Of a DNA stretch of 46,259 nt, positions 32,478 to 46,259 are shown one piece after another (within the stretch, counting starts at the first letter, position 1; every line of letters begins with the position of its first letter). A program made the position numbers and the translations under genes. The stretch is from positions 1-46,259 of the forward strand of contig JAQGIW010000058.1 of NCBI GenBank assembly GCA_028290905.1, in the 5' to 3' direction. The DNA is from Caulobacteraceae bacterium (GTDB taxonomy: Bacteria; Pseudomonadota; Alphaproteobacteria; Caulobacterales; Caulobacteraceae). The notes beneath the pieces are model-generated. The model did not search any database and was not told where the DNA came from. It was given only the letters and a program-made list of their open reading frames with translations.

Positions 32478-33926
32478 GTGACGACATCGACCATTCCCCT
32501 CGCGGACGGCTTTCCGGCCGCCACCCGCGCCGACTGGCTTGCCCTGGTGGCCAAGACCCTCAAGGGCGCCGGGGTCGAGACCCTCGTCGGCCGGACCGCC
32601 GATGGCCTCGAGCTCGACGCGCTCTATACCGACGAGGATGGCGCGGCCGCCCTCCCCTTCGCGCCCGCTCCGCGCGGCGGCGAACGGGGGTGGGACGTGC
32701 GCGCCCGGGTGGCGGCGTCGGAGCCCGCCCTGGCCAACCGCGAGGCGCTGGACGCCCTGGCCGGCGGCGCAGGCTCGATCCTCATCAAGCTCGACAGCGG
32801 CGCTGGCGGCGTCGCCGTGACTTCGGCCGGGGACCTTGACCGGGTGCTGGCGGGGGTGGAAGCGGAGCTCGCCCCCATCGCCCTGGACGCGGGCTTCCTC
32901 GGGACCGGGGCGGCCGACTGGTTGCACGACGTCGCCAAGGCTTCCCCCCGCGCGCGCCTTGCCTTCCACCTCGATCCCCTCTCCGCCTTCGCGGCGACGG
33001 GCGCGAGCCCGGGACCCATCGCGGCCCACGTTTCCGCCGCCGCCGCCCTGGCCGCGACGCTGGCCGAGACCTATCCGACGGCCAGCCTGTTCCTGGCCAG
33101 CGGCGGGGTGGTGCACGAGGCGGGCGGCTCGCCGGCCTGGGAGCTGGCTTTCGCCGCGGCGGCGGCGGTCGCCTACGCCAGGGCCCTGGTCGGGGCCGGC
33201 CTCTCGATGGCCGACGCCTTCGGCCGCCTGACCCTCGGCCTGCACGTCGACGCCGAACCCCTGGCCGCCATGGCCAAGCTGCGCGCGGCGCGGGTGGTGT
33301 GGACGCGGATCGTGCGGGCCTGCGGGACCGACGTCCCGGCCCGCATCGAGGCCCGATCATCGGGGCGGATGCTGACCCGCGCCGACCGCTGGACCAACCT
33401 TATCCGCCTCACCAGCGCCGGGTTCGGCGCGGCGGTGGGCGGGGCGGACGCCGTCGTCCTGGGCGCGTTCACCGACGCGCTCAATGAAGGATCGGGGGCG
33501 CCCGCGGACGCCTTCGCCCTGCGCTTGGCGCGCAACACCCAGCTGATGCTGATGGAAGAGGCGCAGCTCGGCCGCGTGGCCGATCCGGCCGGCGGATCGT
33601 GGGCGCTGGAGGCCCAGACCGACGACCTGGCGCGCGCCGCCTGGGAAGCCTTCGTCGCCATCGAGGTGGCCGGCGGACTGGCGGCCGCCCTGAAAGGCGA
33701 GATCGTCGCCGACGCCGTCGCCCGCTCCCGCGAGGCGCTGAAGGGGGCCATCGACGATCGCGCGATGCGGATCATCGGCGTGACCGACTTCCTTCCCGCC
33801 GAGGAGACCCCCCAAGCGGCCGCGGCGGCGGCGCCGTCGTCGGCCCCGCCCGCCGCGCGTCAGCCCGGGCCGGACGACGCCTGTCCGCCGCTGACCCCGA
33901 TCCGCCTGGAGGAGATGGCGACATGA
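32478..33926 (+). CDS. mutA: Methylmalonyl-CoA mutase small (beta) subunit
   Basis: 482 residues from GTG 32478, with AAGGA at 32465-32469. An alternative GTG at 32445 would add 11 residues. The TIM-barrel part resembles the mutase family ([65 protein letters not shown]), but catalytic and cobalamin residues are lacking, as in the non-catalytic subunit. It is shorter than the Propionibacterium small subunit and ends in an Ala/Pro linker where a degenerate B12 domain would begin. It overlaps mutB by 4 bases. Confidence 0.9.
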
Positions 33927-37735: not shown

Positions 37736-37823
37736 TCAGTTTGCTCCTGAGGCCGACGAATGTTGCAGCGCAGCATAACCGCTTTTGGCGGGATCGAACA
37801 GACCCAAATTCAAGGGGGTGGCC

Positions 37824-37922
37824 CCCCTCCCCGGCTTCGCCGGTACTCCCCCCAGAAGGGGGAGAGACGCGCTCCTCCTCCCCCACGGGAGGAGCGGGAC
37901 CCCGAAGGGGTGGAGGGGGCGC
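37824..37922. repeat. Composite GC-rich palindromic repeat, copy 2 (modules I+II)
   Basis: Module I (37824-37867) reads CCCCTCCCCGGCTTCGCCGG then TACTCCCCCCAGAAGGGGGA. Module II (37871-37922) reads CTCCTCCTCCCCCACGGGAG then GGACCCCGAAGGGGTGGAGG, the reverse complement of module II at 36930. It lies upstream of the HHH protein gene. Confidence 0.78.
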
Positions 37923-38882: not shown

Positions 38883-40136
38883 ATGAGGGCGGTAATTCGG
38901 CGCGGCGGAGCACTGGTGGTGGACGAGATGGCGACGCCGGTCGCCGCAGCCGGCCAGGTGCTGTGCAAGACCCTGGTGTGCGGCATCTGCGGCTCCGACC
39001 TGCACGCCCTGGACCACTACGACCACATGATCGACCTGACCCAGAGGATCGGCGGCTTCAGCCATATGAAGAAGGGCGCCGACACGGTGTTCGGCCACGA
39101 GTTCTGCTGCGAGGTGCTGGAGGCGGGGCCGGACACGGCCGGGCGATTCAAGGCCGGGGCGCGGGTCGTCTCGATGCCGGGGCTGATGGGCCCCGACGGC
39201 ATGGAGACGATCGGCTATTCCAGCCGAATCCCCGGCGGGTTCGCGCAGGAGCTCCTGCTCTCCGAGATGCTGATGCTGGAGGTTCCCAACGGCCTCAGCG
39301 CCGAGCACGCCGCCCTGACCGAGCCGCTGGCGGTGGGCGAGCACGCGGTGGCCAAGGCCGAGGCGACGCCCGATCACGCCCTGATGGTGGTGGGATGCGG
39401 GCCGGTGGGGCTGGCGGTGATCGCGTCGCTGAAGGCGCGGGGCCTGGGGCCGATCGTGGCCGCAGACTATTCGGCCGAGCGGCGGGCTGCAGCGCAGCGG
39501 ATGGGGGCGGAGATCATCGTCGATCCGGCCCAGGTGTCGCCGCACGACTCCTGGGCGTCACTCGGCGTCCCCGCCTCCCGCGCCGACGGGGTCATCGCCG
39601 CGGCGCAGGGCAAGGACGTGCGCCGGCCGCTGATCTTCGAATGCGTCGGGGCGCCGGGCGTCGTCCAGTCGCTGGCGATGGCCGCACCGCCGGGGGCGCG
39701 GATCGTAGTCGCCGGGGTGTGCATGGAGACCGATGCGATCGAGCCGCTGGTGCTGATCAGCAAGGAGATCGAGCTGCGCTATGTCCTGGGCTATACGCCG
39801 GAGGAGTTCGGGGCGTCGCTGAGGAACCTCGCCGAGGGGGTGACGGCCTACGCCGGGGCGATCACCGGCGTGGTGGGCCTGGACGAGACGCCCGACGCGT
39901 TCAAGCGCCTGCAGACCGACAAGAGCCAGATCAAGATCATGGTGGCGCCGGGGAAGTGGCCCCCACCACCCCCTCGGGGGCCCCCTCCCCCTGTGGGGGA
40001 GGAGAGGCGCCCTGCTGAACTCTCTCCCCCCTCTGGGGGGAGTAAGGCCGAAGGCCGGGAGGGGGGCTACGGTTTGCGCAACCTCGTCAGCCCCTCCTGG
40101 GCCGTCGACGCCACCAGCCTGCCGTCGATGTTGTAG
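38883..40136 (+). CDS. Zinc-type medium-chain alcohol dehydrogenase with repeat-derived tail
   Basis: 417 residues from ATG 38883 with GGGAGAGAAG just upstream. The N-terminal GroES-like domain has CGICGSDLH (catalytic Zn Cys) and GHEFCCEV (His-Glu). An insert between them (DHYDHMIDLTQRIGGFSHMK) is longer than usual, and the four-cysteine structural zinc loop is not seen. The nucleotide fold has GCGPVGLAVIA near 165. The substrate is unknown. Family sequence ends at KSQIKIMVAPGKW; the following 57 residues (PPPPPRGPPPPVGEERRPA and on) come from a composite repeat and then from antisense tesB, so the native stop has been lost. Confidence 0.88.
   Translation: MRAVIRRGGALVVDEMATPVAAAGQVLCKTLVCGICGSDLHALDHYDHMIDLTQRIGGFSHMKKGADTVFGHEFCCEVLEAGPDTAGRFKAGARVVSMPGLMGPDGMETIGYSSRIPGGFAQELLLSEMLMLEVPNGLSAEHAALTEPLAVGEHAVAKAEATPDHALMVVGCGPVGLAVIASLKARGLGPIVAADYSAERRAAAQRMGAEIIVDPAQVSPHDSWASLGVPASRADGVIAAAQGKDVRRPLIFECVGAPGVVQSLAMAAPPGARIVVAGVCMETDAIEPLVLISKEIELRYVLGYTPEEFGASLRNLAEGVTAYAGAITGVVGLDETPDAFKRLQTDKSQIKIMVAPGKWPPPPPRGPPPPVGEERRPAELSPPSGGSKAEGREGGYGLRNLVSPSWAVDATSLPSML
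39958..40068. repeat. Composite GC-rich palindromic repeat, copy 3 (modules II+I)
   Basis: Module II (about 39958-40007: CCCCCTCGGGGGCCCCCTCC then CCCTGTGGGGGAGGAGAG) and module I in reverse orientation (40020-40068: CTCTCTCCCCCCTCTGGGGG then GAGTAAGGCCGAAGGCCGGG). It lies inside the 3' end of the dehydrogenase frame and touches the stop of the convergent tesB gene. Confidence 0.78.
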
Positions 40137-40882: not shown

Positions 40883-41692
40883 GCCGCCCTCCAAAGCGCG
40901 CGTGGGGCTTAGCGGGGGCGGCGAGGTGGGGCAAGGCGCCGCTCCGGCGGCCCCGGGCAGGTTTGGGCGGGCGCCGGGCAGGCTCCTGGCAGGTCACAGG
41001 CAGGTGAATGCGCGATCGCGGCTGGGATCAGGCTGGCGCCGGGCAGGTTCCCGGCGGCGGCTGGCAGGTTCGAGGCAGGTTCCCGGCAGGCGCCAGGCAC
41101 TGCATCAAGCCGGGACCGGCGCCGTCGCCGTGGCTTGGCCTCAAATTCATTAACGATATCAGCCTCGTCGAAGCCACGCGCGCGCGCCACCCGGCTGCCT
41201 AGGCGAGCACTCTTGGCCCGCACGTGGGCGACGCCTAGCAGCCCGGATTTTCCAGGGTGGGCATGATGCTGCAAGCTCCAGCGCGAGCCAATGACGTCGA
41301 GAAACATTGCATTATCTAGTTGACCCGAGTCCTGTCCCGACCACCCGCTGCGCTGCACCTTGATTTTCACCGTAAATGGACCGTTGATACGGTGCGGTCG
41401 CGCCCGGTGGCGCCGCACCCGCGAAGGGAACTGGGAAATCGGCGCCGGCTTTCCGCGGCCCCGAATGTTCAGACGATGAGAAAGATCAGGGAGATTGTTG
41501 CATATTGCATGGTCTCCCGTCAAGTCGTTCGGCGGTGTTTGTGCCAGCGCCGATGACATAAAGGGCGACCGGGAAGCGCGCGCGATTTCGATCAGCCTGT
41601 TGCCTCGAAGAACGGACGACGAAACGGTGCTCCTGTCGGCGCATCGACGGTCGCGCCTCGCCGGAACATGGCTGGCGAAGCGTCCATTGTTT
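40883..41692. other. 810-bp gap, no convincing gene
   Basis: Contains the GGCAGG repeat tract (40956-41098). From 41100 to 41692 base composition is visibly less GC-rich than the neighbours, and no frame shows family resemblance or consistent G/C-ending codons. A 7-bp dyad CTAGGCG/CGCCTAG (41199-41205, 41232-41238) is the only other structure. On the minus strand a 34-codon frame starts at 41696, overlapping the stop of the HsdR-tail fusion gene by ATGA, but its codon use is poor. The region could be degraded foreign DNA downstream of a former restriction locus. Confidence 0.55.
40956..41098. repeat. Degenerate GGCAGG repeat tract
   Basis: GGCAGG occurs eight times between 40956 and 41090, mostly in the wider form CCGGGCAGGTTCCCGG or TGGCAGGTTCG, with irregular spacing of about 10-40 bases, ending in CCAGGCA. 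It looks like an eroded tandem array with a repeat unit of about 15 bases. It does not encode a convincing protein on either strand. Confidence 0.6.
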
Positions 41693-42514
41693 TCATAGGA
41701 CGCGTTGCTCCGCCCGGTCCCTGAGCGCCTCGTACAGCTGGCCTGGGCCGAGCAGGACTTCCTTCAGCCCTTCGCGAACGGACTGAGAGCCGAGGGCCTG
41801 GCGGCTCATCGTTTCGTGAGCGGCCAGAGCATCCATGACAGCGTTCATGATCTCAGTGCTGAGGGTCGGGGAGTTGGCGAACTGGGCCTTGGTGTTGTTG
41901 CTTGCCTGCAGGACAAGCTCCCTGGATTCCAGGAGTTTCCCCTTGATGACGTTGTTCACGTAGACGAGTTGGTCGTCGTCCGTCAGGTCGCCCTCGAACA
42001 ACTCGTTCACCCGCGCGATGATCTCGGCGAGCAGGGCGTTCTCTTTCTCCTGGACGCTCCCGGACCCCAACTCCGCGACGCCGCTGAGCTTGGGCGCGTC
42101 GTTGGAGGCGATCACCCGGATGCCCAGCTGGCCGCTCTTACCCAGCATGCCGTTCCTCTCGGCGACGGTCACCTCGCCCCGGCCGCTATAGCCGGTCGGC
42201 AGGATCGTGCCGTCGGCCAGCGTGATCTCCTCGTCGGAGATGATCTCGAAGGTGTCACCCACTGCTGCCGTGGCGGACGAGAGGCGCTCGCCCAGGCGGA
42301 GTTGAACCTCCGTTCCCTCGGGCATCTTGACGCTCGCAGGGGCCGAGGGAGCCGGGAGTGGCGCGGCTGGAGGAACAGGGGTGGGAATCGTCAGGATCAG
42401 GGACCTCGGCGCGGCCGAAGGACCGGCAGCGTGAGCCGCCGACACAACGGCCCATAGCGCAAGGGCAGCGGCCGCCACGGCTGGACCGTGGCGCATCGAG
42501 TGTCGGATCAGCAT
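41693..42514 (-). CDS. Exported beta-rich domain fused to a type I restriction HsdR C-terminal tail
   Basis: 273 residues from ATG 42514 (GGGGGG four bases before). Signal peptide about 1-30; Pro/Ala linker 45-62; domain 63-135 with MPEGTEVQLRLGERLSSATA, VGDTFEIISDEEITLADGTI and GRGEVTVAERNGMLGKSGQL, a compact beta domain common in exported proteins. From about residue 145 the sequence changes to GSGSVQEKENALLAEIIARV, NELFEGDLTDDDQLVYVNNV, QASNNTKAQFANSPTLSTEI and REGLKEVLLGPGQLYEALRD. To my recollection this is the end of HsdR subunits of type I restriction enzymes, where it contacts the methylase core. No helicase, nuclease, hsdM or hsdS is nearby. A deletion fusion is the simplest origin. 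Confidence 0.72.
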   Translation of the reverse strand: MLIRHSMRHGPAVAAAALALWAVVSAAHAAGPSAAPRSLILTIPTPVPPAAPLPAPSAPASVKMPEGTEVQLRLGERLSSATAAVGDTFEIISDEEITLADGTILPTGYSGRGEVTVAERNGMLGKSGQLGIRVIASNDAPKLSGVAELGSGSVQEKENALLAEIIARVNELFEGDLTDDDQLVYVNNVIKGKLLESRELVLQASNNTKAQFANSPTLSTEIMNAVMDALAAHETMSRQALGSQSVREGLKEVLLGPGQLYEALRDRAEQRVL

Positions 42515-44949: not shown

Positions 44950-46149
44950 TTGACGCGTACGCGAGCGGTTCCGCCGACCTGGCTGCTGGGGTTCGGCTTC
45001 TGGCCCCTCGGGGCGTTCGGGGCCTTGCAGCTGCTCACCGTGCCGCAACTGCTGGCGGCTGATCGTGTGCCGGAGCCGCAGATCGCCGCCGTCACCGCCA
45101 TCAGCCTCCTGCCGGGCTTCGGCGCCTTCGTGCTGGCCCCGATCCTCGACTGGCGCCTCAGCCGGCGCGCCTACGCGGTCGGCTTCGCCCTGCTGGCGGC
45201 CCTGTGCATGGCCGCGGCGCTGGCCTCCATCCGCGACCTGCCGGTCCTGACGGCCCTGCTGTTCGTCGGCAATACGGCGATCGCGCTCTGCGTCTTCGCG
45301 GTCGGCGGCTGGTTCGGCAGCATCACCCGCAAGGAGGACGAGGGTGCGCTCGGGGCCTGGTTCACCGTCGCCAACATCGGCGCCGCCGGCCTGGTCGGCG
45401 CCAGCGGGATCCACTTCCTGCGCGGCCTGCCGCCCGGGCTGGGGGCCGGGGCGGCCGGCCTGACGGTGCTGGCCGCCCTCCCCCTCTACCTGTGGGTCCC
45501 CTGCCCGCCCGCCGACGACCGCCTCGCGCACGAGAGCTTCCGCGCCTTCGCCCGCGATGTCGCGGCGCTGCTGCGCCGCCCGGCGGTGGTCTGGACCCTG
45601 CTGCTGTTCCTGGCCCCGGCCGCCGCCTTCGCCCTGACCAACATCATGGGCGGGGTCGGACGCGACTTCCACGTCTCGGAGGGTTTCGTCGGCCTGATCA
45701 GCGGCGTCGGCGTCACCCTCGCCGGGGTGTTCGGCAGCCTGATGATTCCGCTGCTTAACCGCAGGGTGGCGCCCAGGCCGCTCTATTTGATGGTCGGCGG
45801 CGCGGGCGCCCTGTTCTCCGCCGCACTCGCCCTGGCGCCGCACATTCCGGCGACGTTCGCCCTGGCGGTGATCGGCGAGAACATCTTCCAGGCCGCGTCG
45901 TTCTCGGTGCAGAACCTGATCATCCTGCGCACCATCGGCCAGAACAATCCGCTGGCGGCCACGCAGTTCGGAGTGCTCAACGCGGCCGGCAGCCTGCCGC
46001 TCAGCTATATGCAGTGGGCCGACGGCCAGGGCTATGGGGTCAACGGCATCGCCGGGGCCTACGTCGCCGACGCCCTGATCAGCGGCGGCGCCTGCGCGGT
46101 GCTGGCGCTGATGCTGGTCCTGCTGCGCCGGCGCATCCCGGCGATCTAG
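44950..46149 (+). CDS. MFS permease, possibly AmpG/PAT-like
   Basis: 399 residues from TTG 44950, chosen for GGGGGG at about 44938-44943 and because the first helix starts shortly after (WLLGFGFWPLGAFGALQLL). About 12 helices are visible, with ILDWRLSRRAYAVGF between helices 2 and 3 as the MFS motif-A equivalent and a second-half repeat RDFHVSEGFVGLISGVGV, then SLMIPLLNRRVAPRPLYL. The plan resembles AmpG/acetyl-CoA-type (PAT) permeases that carry muropeptides or CoA esters, but the substrate is unknown. Its stop codon TAG (46147-46149) lies within the left arm of the palindromic repeat that ends the window. Confidence 0.8.
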   Translation: MTRTRAVPPTWLLGFGFWPLGAFGALQLLTVPQLLAADRVPEPQIAAVTAISLLPGFGAFVLAPILDWRLSRRAYAVGFALLAALCMAAALASIRDLPVLTALLFVGNTAIALCVFAVGGWFGSITRKEDEGALGAWFTVANIGAAGLVGASGIHFLRGLPPGLGAGAAGLTVLAALPLYLWVPCPPADDRLAHESFRAFARDVAALLRRPAVVWTLLLFLAPAAAFALTNIMGGVGRDFHVSEGFVGLISGVGVTLAGVFGSLMIPLLNRRVAPRPLYLMVGGAGALFSAALALAPHIPATFALAVIGENIFQAASFSVQNLIILRTIGQNNPLAATQFGVLNAAGSLPLSYMQWADGQGYGVNGIAGAYVADALISGGACAVLALMLVLLRRRIPAI

Positions 46150-46250
46150 AGCGTGTTGCGATCCGATGGAATCAGATCGCAACACGCTCTAGTTCTTTGT
46201 GTTGACGCGCGTTTTGTCCCGAAAACCGGTTCCCACTTTTCGGAACGCGC
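46146..46250. repeat. CTAGAGC-bounded two-hairpin element, copy 2
   Basis: Hairpin A: 18-bp perfect arms CTAGAGCGTGTTGCGATC (46146-46163) and its complement (46175-46192), loop CGATGGAATCA. Hairpin B: GCGCGTT (46207-46213) with AACGCGC (46244-46250) and CCGAAAA (46219-46225) with TTTTCGG (46237-46243), loop containing CCGGTTCCCAC. It has the same order, TGGAATCA loop core and CCAC-containing B loop as 36982-37100. The B module resembles the short CCGAAAACCGGTTCCCACTT repeats dispersed widely in alphaproteobacteria. Confidence 0.85.
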
Positions 46251-46259
46251 TCTAGTTCT

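Follow-up and report, generated by a model that had tools for sequence, protein, structure and literature searches.

An in-frame fusion of an hsdR 3′ end to the front half of an exported-type beta-domain gene in a Caulobacteraceae genome, probably a relic of restriction locus decay

In EcoR124I, the C-terminal region of HsdR takes part in the assembly of the complex. Nothing concerning the HsdR C-terminus was found in passages of PMC12707154. The closest HsdR considered here is encoded by an open 1046-codon gene of a congener, G003 (L041:2916-6056, 1046 aa), and contains HSDR_N (PF04313), SWI2_SNF2, ResIII (PF04851) and T1R_D3-like (PF22679) domains. Its score against the TIGR00348 hsdR model was 158.2 bits, which is under the cut-off of 284.55. 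In the type I locus (L041 1-6056), this hsdR lies on the downstream side of an HsdS-type domain, with an AbiEii-type gene between the two. The second system of relevance is a family of small exported beta-domain proteins of Caulobacterales (e.g., L075:1298-1861, 187 aa), which possess a signal-peptide-like start, a PEGTEV...GKSG.L block and a C-terminal part of about 65 residues (YLKIGD...TAYVDQD...PPP).

The window, i.e., the whole stretch of DNA analysed (46,259 nt), is an entire contig of a 317-contig assembly and contains no N. Its minus strand carries a chimeric open reading frame (ORF) at 41693..42514, which starts with ATG and comprises 273 codons plus a stop with no internal stops, so the frame has remained open as the original prediction stated. 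By eye, approximately the first 29 residues (42428..42514) resemble a signal peptide with an Arg/His n-region, a hydrophobic run and the end AHA|A. Next come a linker rich in proline and a beta-rich block, PEGTEVQLRL...GRGEVTVAERNGMLGKSGQLGIRVI. Alignment with relatives showed that residues 1-135 (42110..42514) represent the front half of a protein of the exported beta-domain family, and sequence comparison assigned residues 139-273 (41696..42100) to the 3′ end of hsdR from a type I restriction system. The character of the sequence shifts at residue 139, and the final region closes with LLGPGQLYEALRDRAEQRVL.

The junction between these parts can be placed precisely. DNA homology to hsdR covers 41707-42100 in the best relatives, reaching 42102 in one of them, and homology to the beta-domain gene begins at 42110 and continues upward. 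Therefore, the junction is 42101..42109, nine nucleotides encoding Ala-Ser-Asn (residues 136-138) that are foreign to either parent. This lies inside the range of approximately 42080-42115 expected previously. The last residue of the beta half is Ile135, and HsdR homology starts from Asp139/Ala140. No microhomology was visible at the junction in the comparison with diverged relatives.

The assignment of the tail to HsdR is well supported. Residues 137-267 of the ORF share 86% identity over 131 residues with residues 903-1033 of the congener HsdR (225 bits); 100 shuffled versions of the tail scored no higher than 23.1 bits. The three segments by which the C-terminal part had been recognised as an HsdR end, QEKENALLAEII, NNTKAQFANSP and LGPGQLYEALRD, are all found in the tail. 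Like the C-terminal end of the congener HsdR, to which residues 139-268 correspond, the tail is unchanged at each of the 38 positions that do not vary among 29 HsdR tails. Unlike this protein, the ORF lacks the nuclease, helicase and following domains, approximately 900 residues in total. The 27 plasmid records matching the tail are annotated as “type I restriction endonuclease” (12) or “DEAD/DEAH box helicase family protein” (11) or carry no annotation (4). The profile search suggested earlier for the tail turned out to be uninformative: no Pfam or NCBIfam model matches this region. For this reason, the assignment is based on the congener open frame, where the last ~135 residues occur together with HSDR_N, ResIII, SWI2_SNF2 and T1R_D3-like domains. 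None of Pfam, NCBIfam and PADLOC recognised the ORF as HsdR, and neither the HSDR_N nuclease domain nor SF2 helicase motifs were found in it; PADLOC yielded a weak PDC-S15 line (E = 0.03, ORF residues 178-252). For the tail, the sequence search of solved structures returned one chance-level line (E = 0.81). The match of the congener HsdR to EcoR124I HsdR is confined to residues 121-435, and the tail is therefore not mappable by sequence on the solved structure. In the AlphaFold2 model of the fusion (pLDDT 42.4), helices are predicted within residues 154-270, at a confidence too low for the model to be used.

The front half of the ORF has a different parent. Its residues 51-133 are 55% identical over 83 residues to the L075 protein (99.4 bits), whereas 100 shuffles of the N part gave at most 23.5 bits. 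The family members and the ORF share the signal-peptide-like start and the beta-rich block, but the ORF lacks the C-terminal ~65 residues (YLKIGD...KGT..TAY.D.D...PPP), which are present past the break point in all 11 aligned beta relatives. Hence, the prediction of an exported-type beta domain cut short is borne out. Among seven further beta loci, L039 contains the C-half and L011, situated where a contig of G003 ends, contains a part of it; the C-half gave no match at 1e-3 in the other five, all distant (L007, L008, L009, L013 and L052). A search for the lost C-half within the window found short weak matches only, the best of them (E = 0.002, 32610-32678) in an unrelated long ORF. The family member compared with Pfam and NCBIfam matched no model significantly, and NCBIfam gave two weak lines for the ORF N part (E = 0.055 and 0.13). 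Solved structures yielded a single chance-level line for a beta relative (E = 0.57), and the structure prediction of this relative had a pLDDT of 40. Two beta-domain gene copies were noticed at contig ends of G003 (L011 2-469, L014 1279-1599). One of them has no segment between two GKSG motifs, which resembles the outcome of a deletion between repeats or of a collapse during assembly.

Comparison of the sequences thus identifies the ORF as a fusion of two parents, an HsdR end and the front of an exported beta-domain protein. The fusion was found in a single genome. In the family set of 390 genomes, 69 showed any match; in the order set of 398 genomes, drawn evenly from a larger group and overlapping the family set, 30 did so. 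The junction was spanned only in the window’s own genome, which is counted in both sets, and no second genome with the fused architecture was found. Up to six candidates per genome were scored in these searches, so a miss is possible. In the family set, N-part matches above 50 bits stop at residues 131-136. The 21 other places where the tail was found start at residues 127-139 in 19 cases, and the remaining two are scraps starting at 217 and 229. Seven weak N-part matches across the two sets run beyond residue 136; three of them contain the beta C-half and none contains the HsdR tail. Among 23 loci of named genomes, the tail occurs alone in 22, including loci of Caulobacteraceae, Bradyrhizobium, Mesorhizobium and Sphingomonas, and the N part alone in one, and none is fused. 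Phage records gave no match, and viral contigs contain one HsdR tail, unfused.

If the ORF belonged to a conserved family of exported proteins resembling HsdR by chance, its halves should not be separate in every other matching genome or locus, nor should the similarity reach 225 bits when shuffled sequences do not exceed 23.1. No supporting points were found for such a family, the probability of which is practically negligible, and it was rejected on the basis of the family-set distribution and the shuffle test. Accordingly, the outcomes named in advance as refuting the chimera were absent: HsdR similarity is strong, and the whole protein does not form one family in any other genome examined.

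The genome containing the fusion is estimated to be 96% complete and contains the tail in one copy. The 895-aa HsdR body had no match in this genome. In a control with this query on five genomes, G003, G009 and G026 matched, and G012 and the window’s own genome did not. Neither HSDR_N nor the HsdS domain Methylase_S (PF01420) was found in the window’s own genome, while the control searches found each of them in 9 of 14 genomes. As far as the HsdR body and HsdS are concerned, the tail is thus without a visible type I partner. This bears on the supposition that the ORF encodes a dominant-negative HsdR fragment, the tail of which still binds the methyltransferase subunits of type I systems entering the cell and thereby disturbs these systems. 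The intact tail sequence and the assembly role of the EcoR124I C-terminal region agree with such an activity, but the signal peptide would remove the tail from the cytoplasm, no resident HsdS was found, and the fusion is limited to one genome. This explanation appears highly improbable.

The remains of hsdR are not unique to this genome. The hsdR tail sequence was found in 4 of 16 genomes of the genus, namely G003, G009, G012 and the window’s own (G000), and the gene is open in G003. In G009 (L042 5102-6542), hsdR is internally deleted, with residues 1-186 joined to 741-1038 and the frames overlapping; a zeta-toxin-like gene adjoins it. G012 retains a 39-residue 3′ scrap (L046:2267-2383, residues 996-1034). 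In G281, which belongs to another genus of the family, a 48-residue 3′ scrap (residues 984-1031) is located on the minus strand (L077:4220-4363), and a gene of a phage-type integrase lies about 1.6 kb from it. In G277, hsdR contains an in-frame stop. Altogether, 16 of the 22 tail places in the family set are within frames of at least 1038 codons, one (G209) is cut by the contig start, and five (G000, G009, G012, G281 and G277) are disrupted. The scraps of G012 and G281 are similar to the tail in the window in that only the 3′ end is present, joined to unrelated DNA. They differ in having no in-frame signal-peptide-like stretch ahead and in their 5′ breakpoints, at HsdR residues 996 and 984, respectively, as opposed to 903 in the window. 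Given these other breakpoints and the internal deletion in G009, the simplest reading of the tail is a leftover of hsdR decay. Loss of hsdR with survival of its 3′ end has occurred more than once, as is to be expected if the fusion is a relic.

The tail has retained the features of a coding sequence. Over 129 codons, it differs from the congener tail (L003) by 50 synonymous-only and 16 nonsynonymous codon differences. The comparison of L003 with L004, the tail of the disrupted G009 gene, gave 36 and 17, respectively. None of the 38 invariant positions is changed in the window, and the substitution pattern is comparable to that of other HsdR tails. In a home-made codon model for 11 tails, log-likelihoods for the window branch were −2486.6 with omega = 1, −2481.9 with one omega and −2481.4 with a free omega; the branch lengths show synonymous saturation, which makes the difference of ~5 units weak. 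Because of this saturation, simple codon counts were relied on. They indicate that nearly all divergence of the tail arose under HsdR-like constraint. GC3 is coding-like both in the tail (0.87) and in the N part (0.80). Since the tail still looks like constrained HsdR, either the fusion arose recently or selection continues to act on the frame. The open frame, the same strand and phase of the two parts, the undecayed tail and the coding-like GC3 are compatible with a young relic and equally with a gene that has been retained.

Of the two outcomes offered by the original prediction, a neutral relic and a new exported use, the former is favoured, and no positive support emerged for the latter. 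The signal-peptide-like N-terminus suggests that the HsdR module, if produced, would now be exported. The helical C-terminal region of HsdR could then have been recruited into a new protein that starts with a signal peptide and is under selection in the periplasm or envelope. The open frame, signal-peptide-like start, undecayed tail and coding-like GC3 of the ORF are compatible with this. Nonetheless, the ORF occurs in a single genome with no detected HsdR body or HsdS, its beta domain is cut ahead of the C-half, and hsdR scraps elsewhere have different breakpoints. The lack of a sigma-70-like site in the 0.3 kb scanned upstream of the start also counts against it, albeit weakly. Recruitment of this kind seems quite unlikely. 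Gene birth in one step, in which an assembly region of a cytoplasmic DNA enzyme, combined with a secretion leader, became an exported helical protein kept by selection, can be considered very unlikely.

It is also conceivable that the contig joins two unrelated pieces of a fragmented assembly. The large number of contigs and the position of the junction, 4.1 kb from the contig end, raise this concern, as does the gene order upstream of the thioesterase gene, which is unlike that in G015 and G012. The latter two have a common neighbour, which we take from its sequence to be glpK-like. However, this neighbour is absent within 2.7 kb in G009, so the order at this place varies among relatives anyway. 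Moreover, the window contains no N, the join is in frame and on the same strand, the hsdR body is on no other contig of the genome, and the junction, as judged from relatives, has no long word common to the parents, which assemblers need. An assembly artefact is therefore unlikely.

Several repeats were noted in the window. Upstream, the acyl-CoA thioesterase gene is preceded by degenerate GGCAGG-type direct repeats (40949-41101). Inverted copies of one element, ~100-125 bp in length (37818-37920 and 39959-40070), flank a gene presumably encoding a dehydrogenase-like protein. A separate dispersed element at 46135-46259 is present on many contigs of the same genome.

The ORF is most probably a young chimeric relic, left by a chance rearrangement that destroyed a type I locus, rather than an exported machine maintained by selection. 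Such a rearrangement would have taken place in a Caulobacteraceae lineage, most simply as a deletion, otherwise as an illegitimate joining. The ~135 codons at the 3′ end of hsdR, which encode roughly the final tenth of the enzyme, would have landed in frame behind the first 135 codons of the beta-domain gene, and the 3′ half of the latter would have been lost in the same event. Joining by deletion, as proposed originally, is plausible. No relative in which the two parent genes are neighbours was found, nor any sister species that retains the ancestral arrangement, and the deletion step is therefore unseen. The product, if made, would start with a signal peptide and continue through an incomplete beta domain into the helical C-terminal region of HsdR, in a cell with no visible type I partner, and it is presumably devoid of function.

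It seems that the fusion is most likely ordinary genome decay, and alone it leaves the picture of restriction biology unchanged. At the same time, it illustrates cleanly how 3′ ends shed during the decay of restriction loci can come to lie in frame after other genes, in this case after a signal peptide, and it is useful as a case of raw material for gene birth by fusion.
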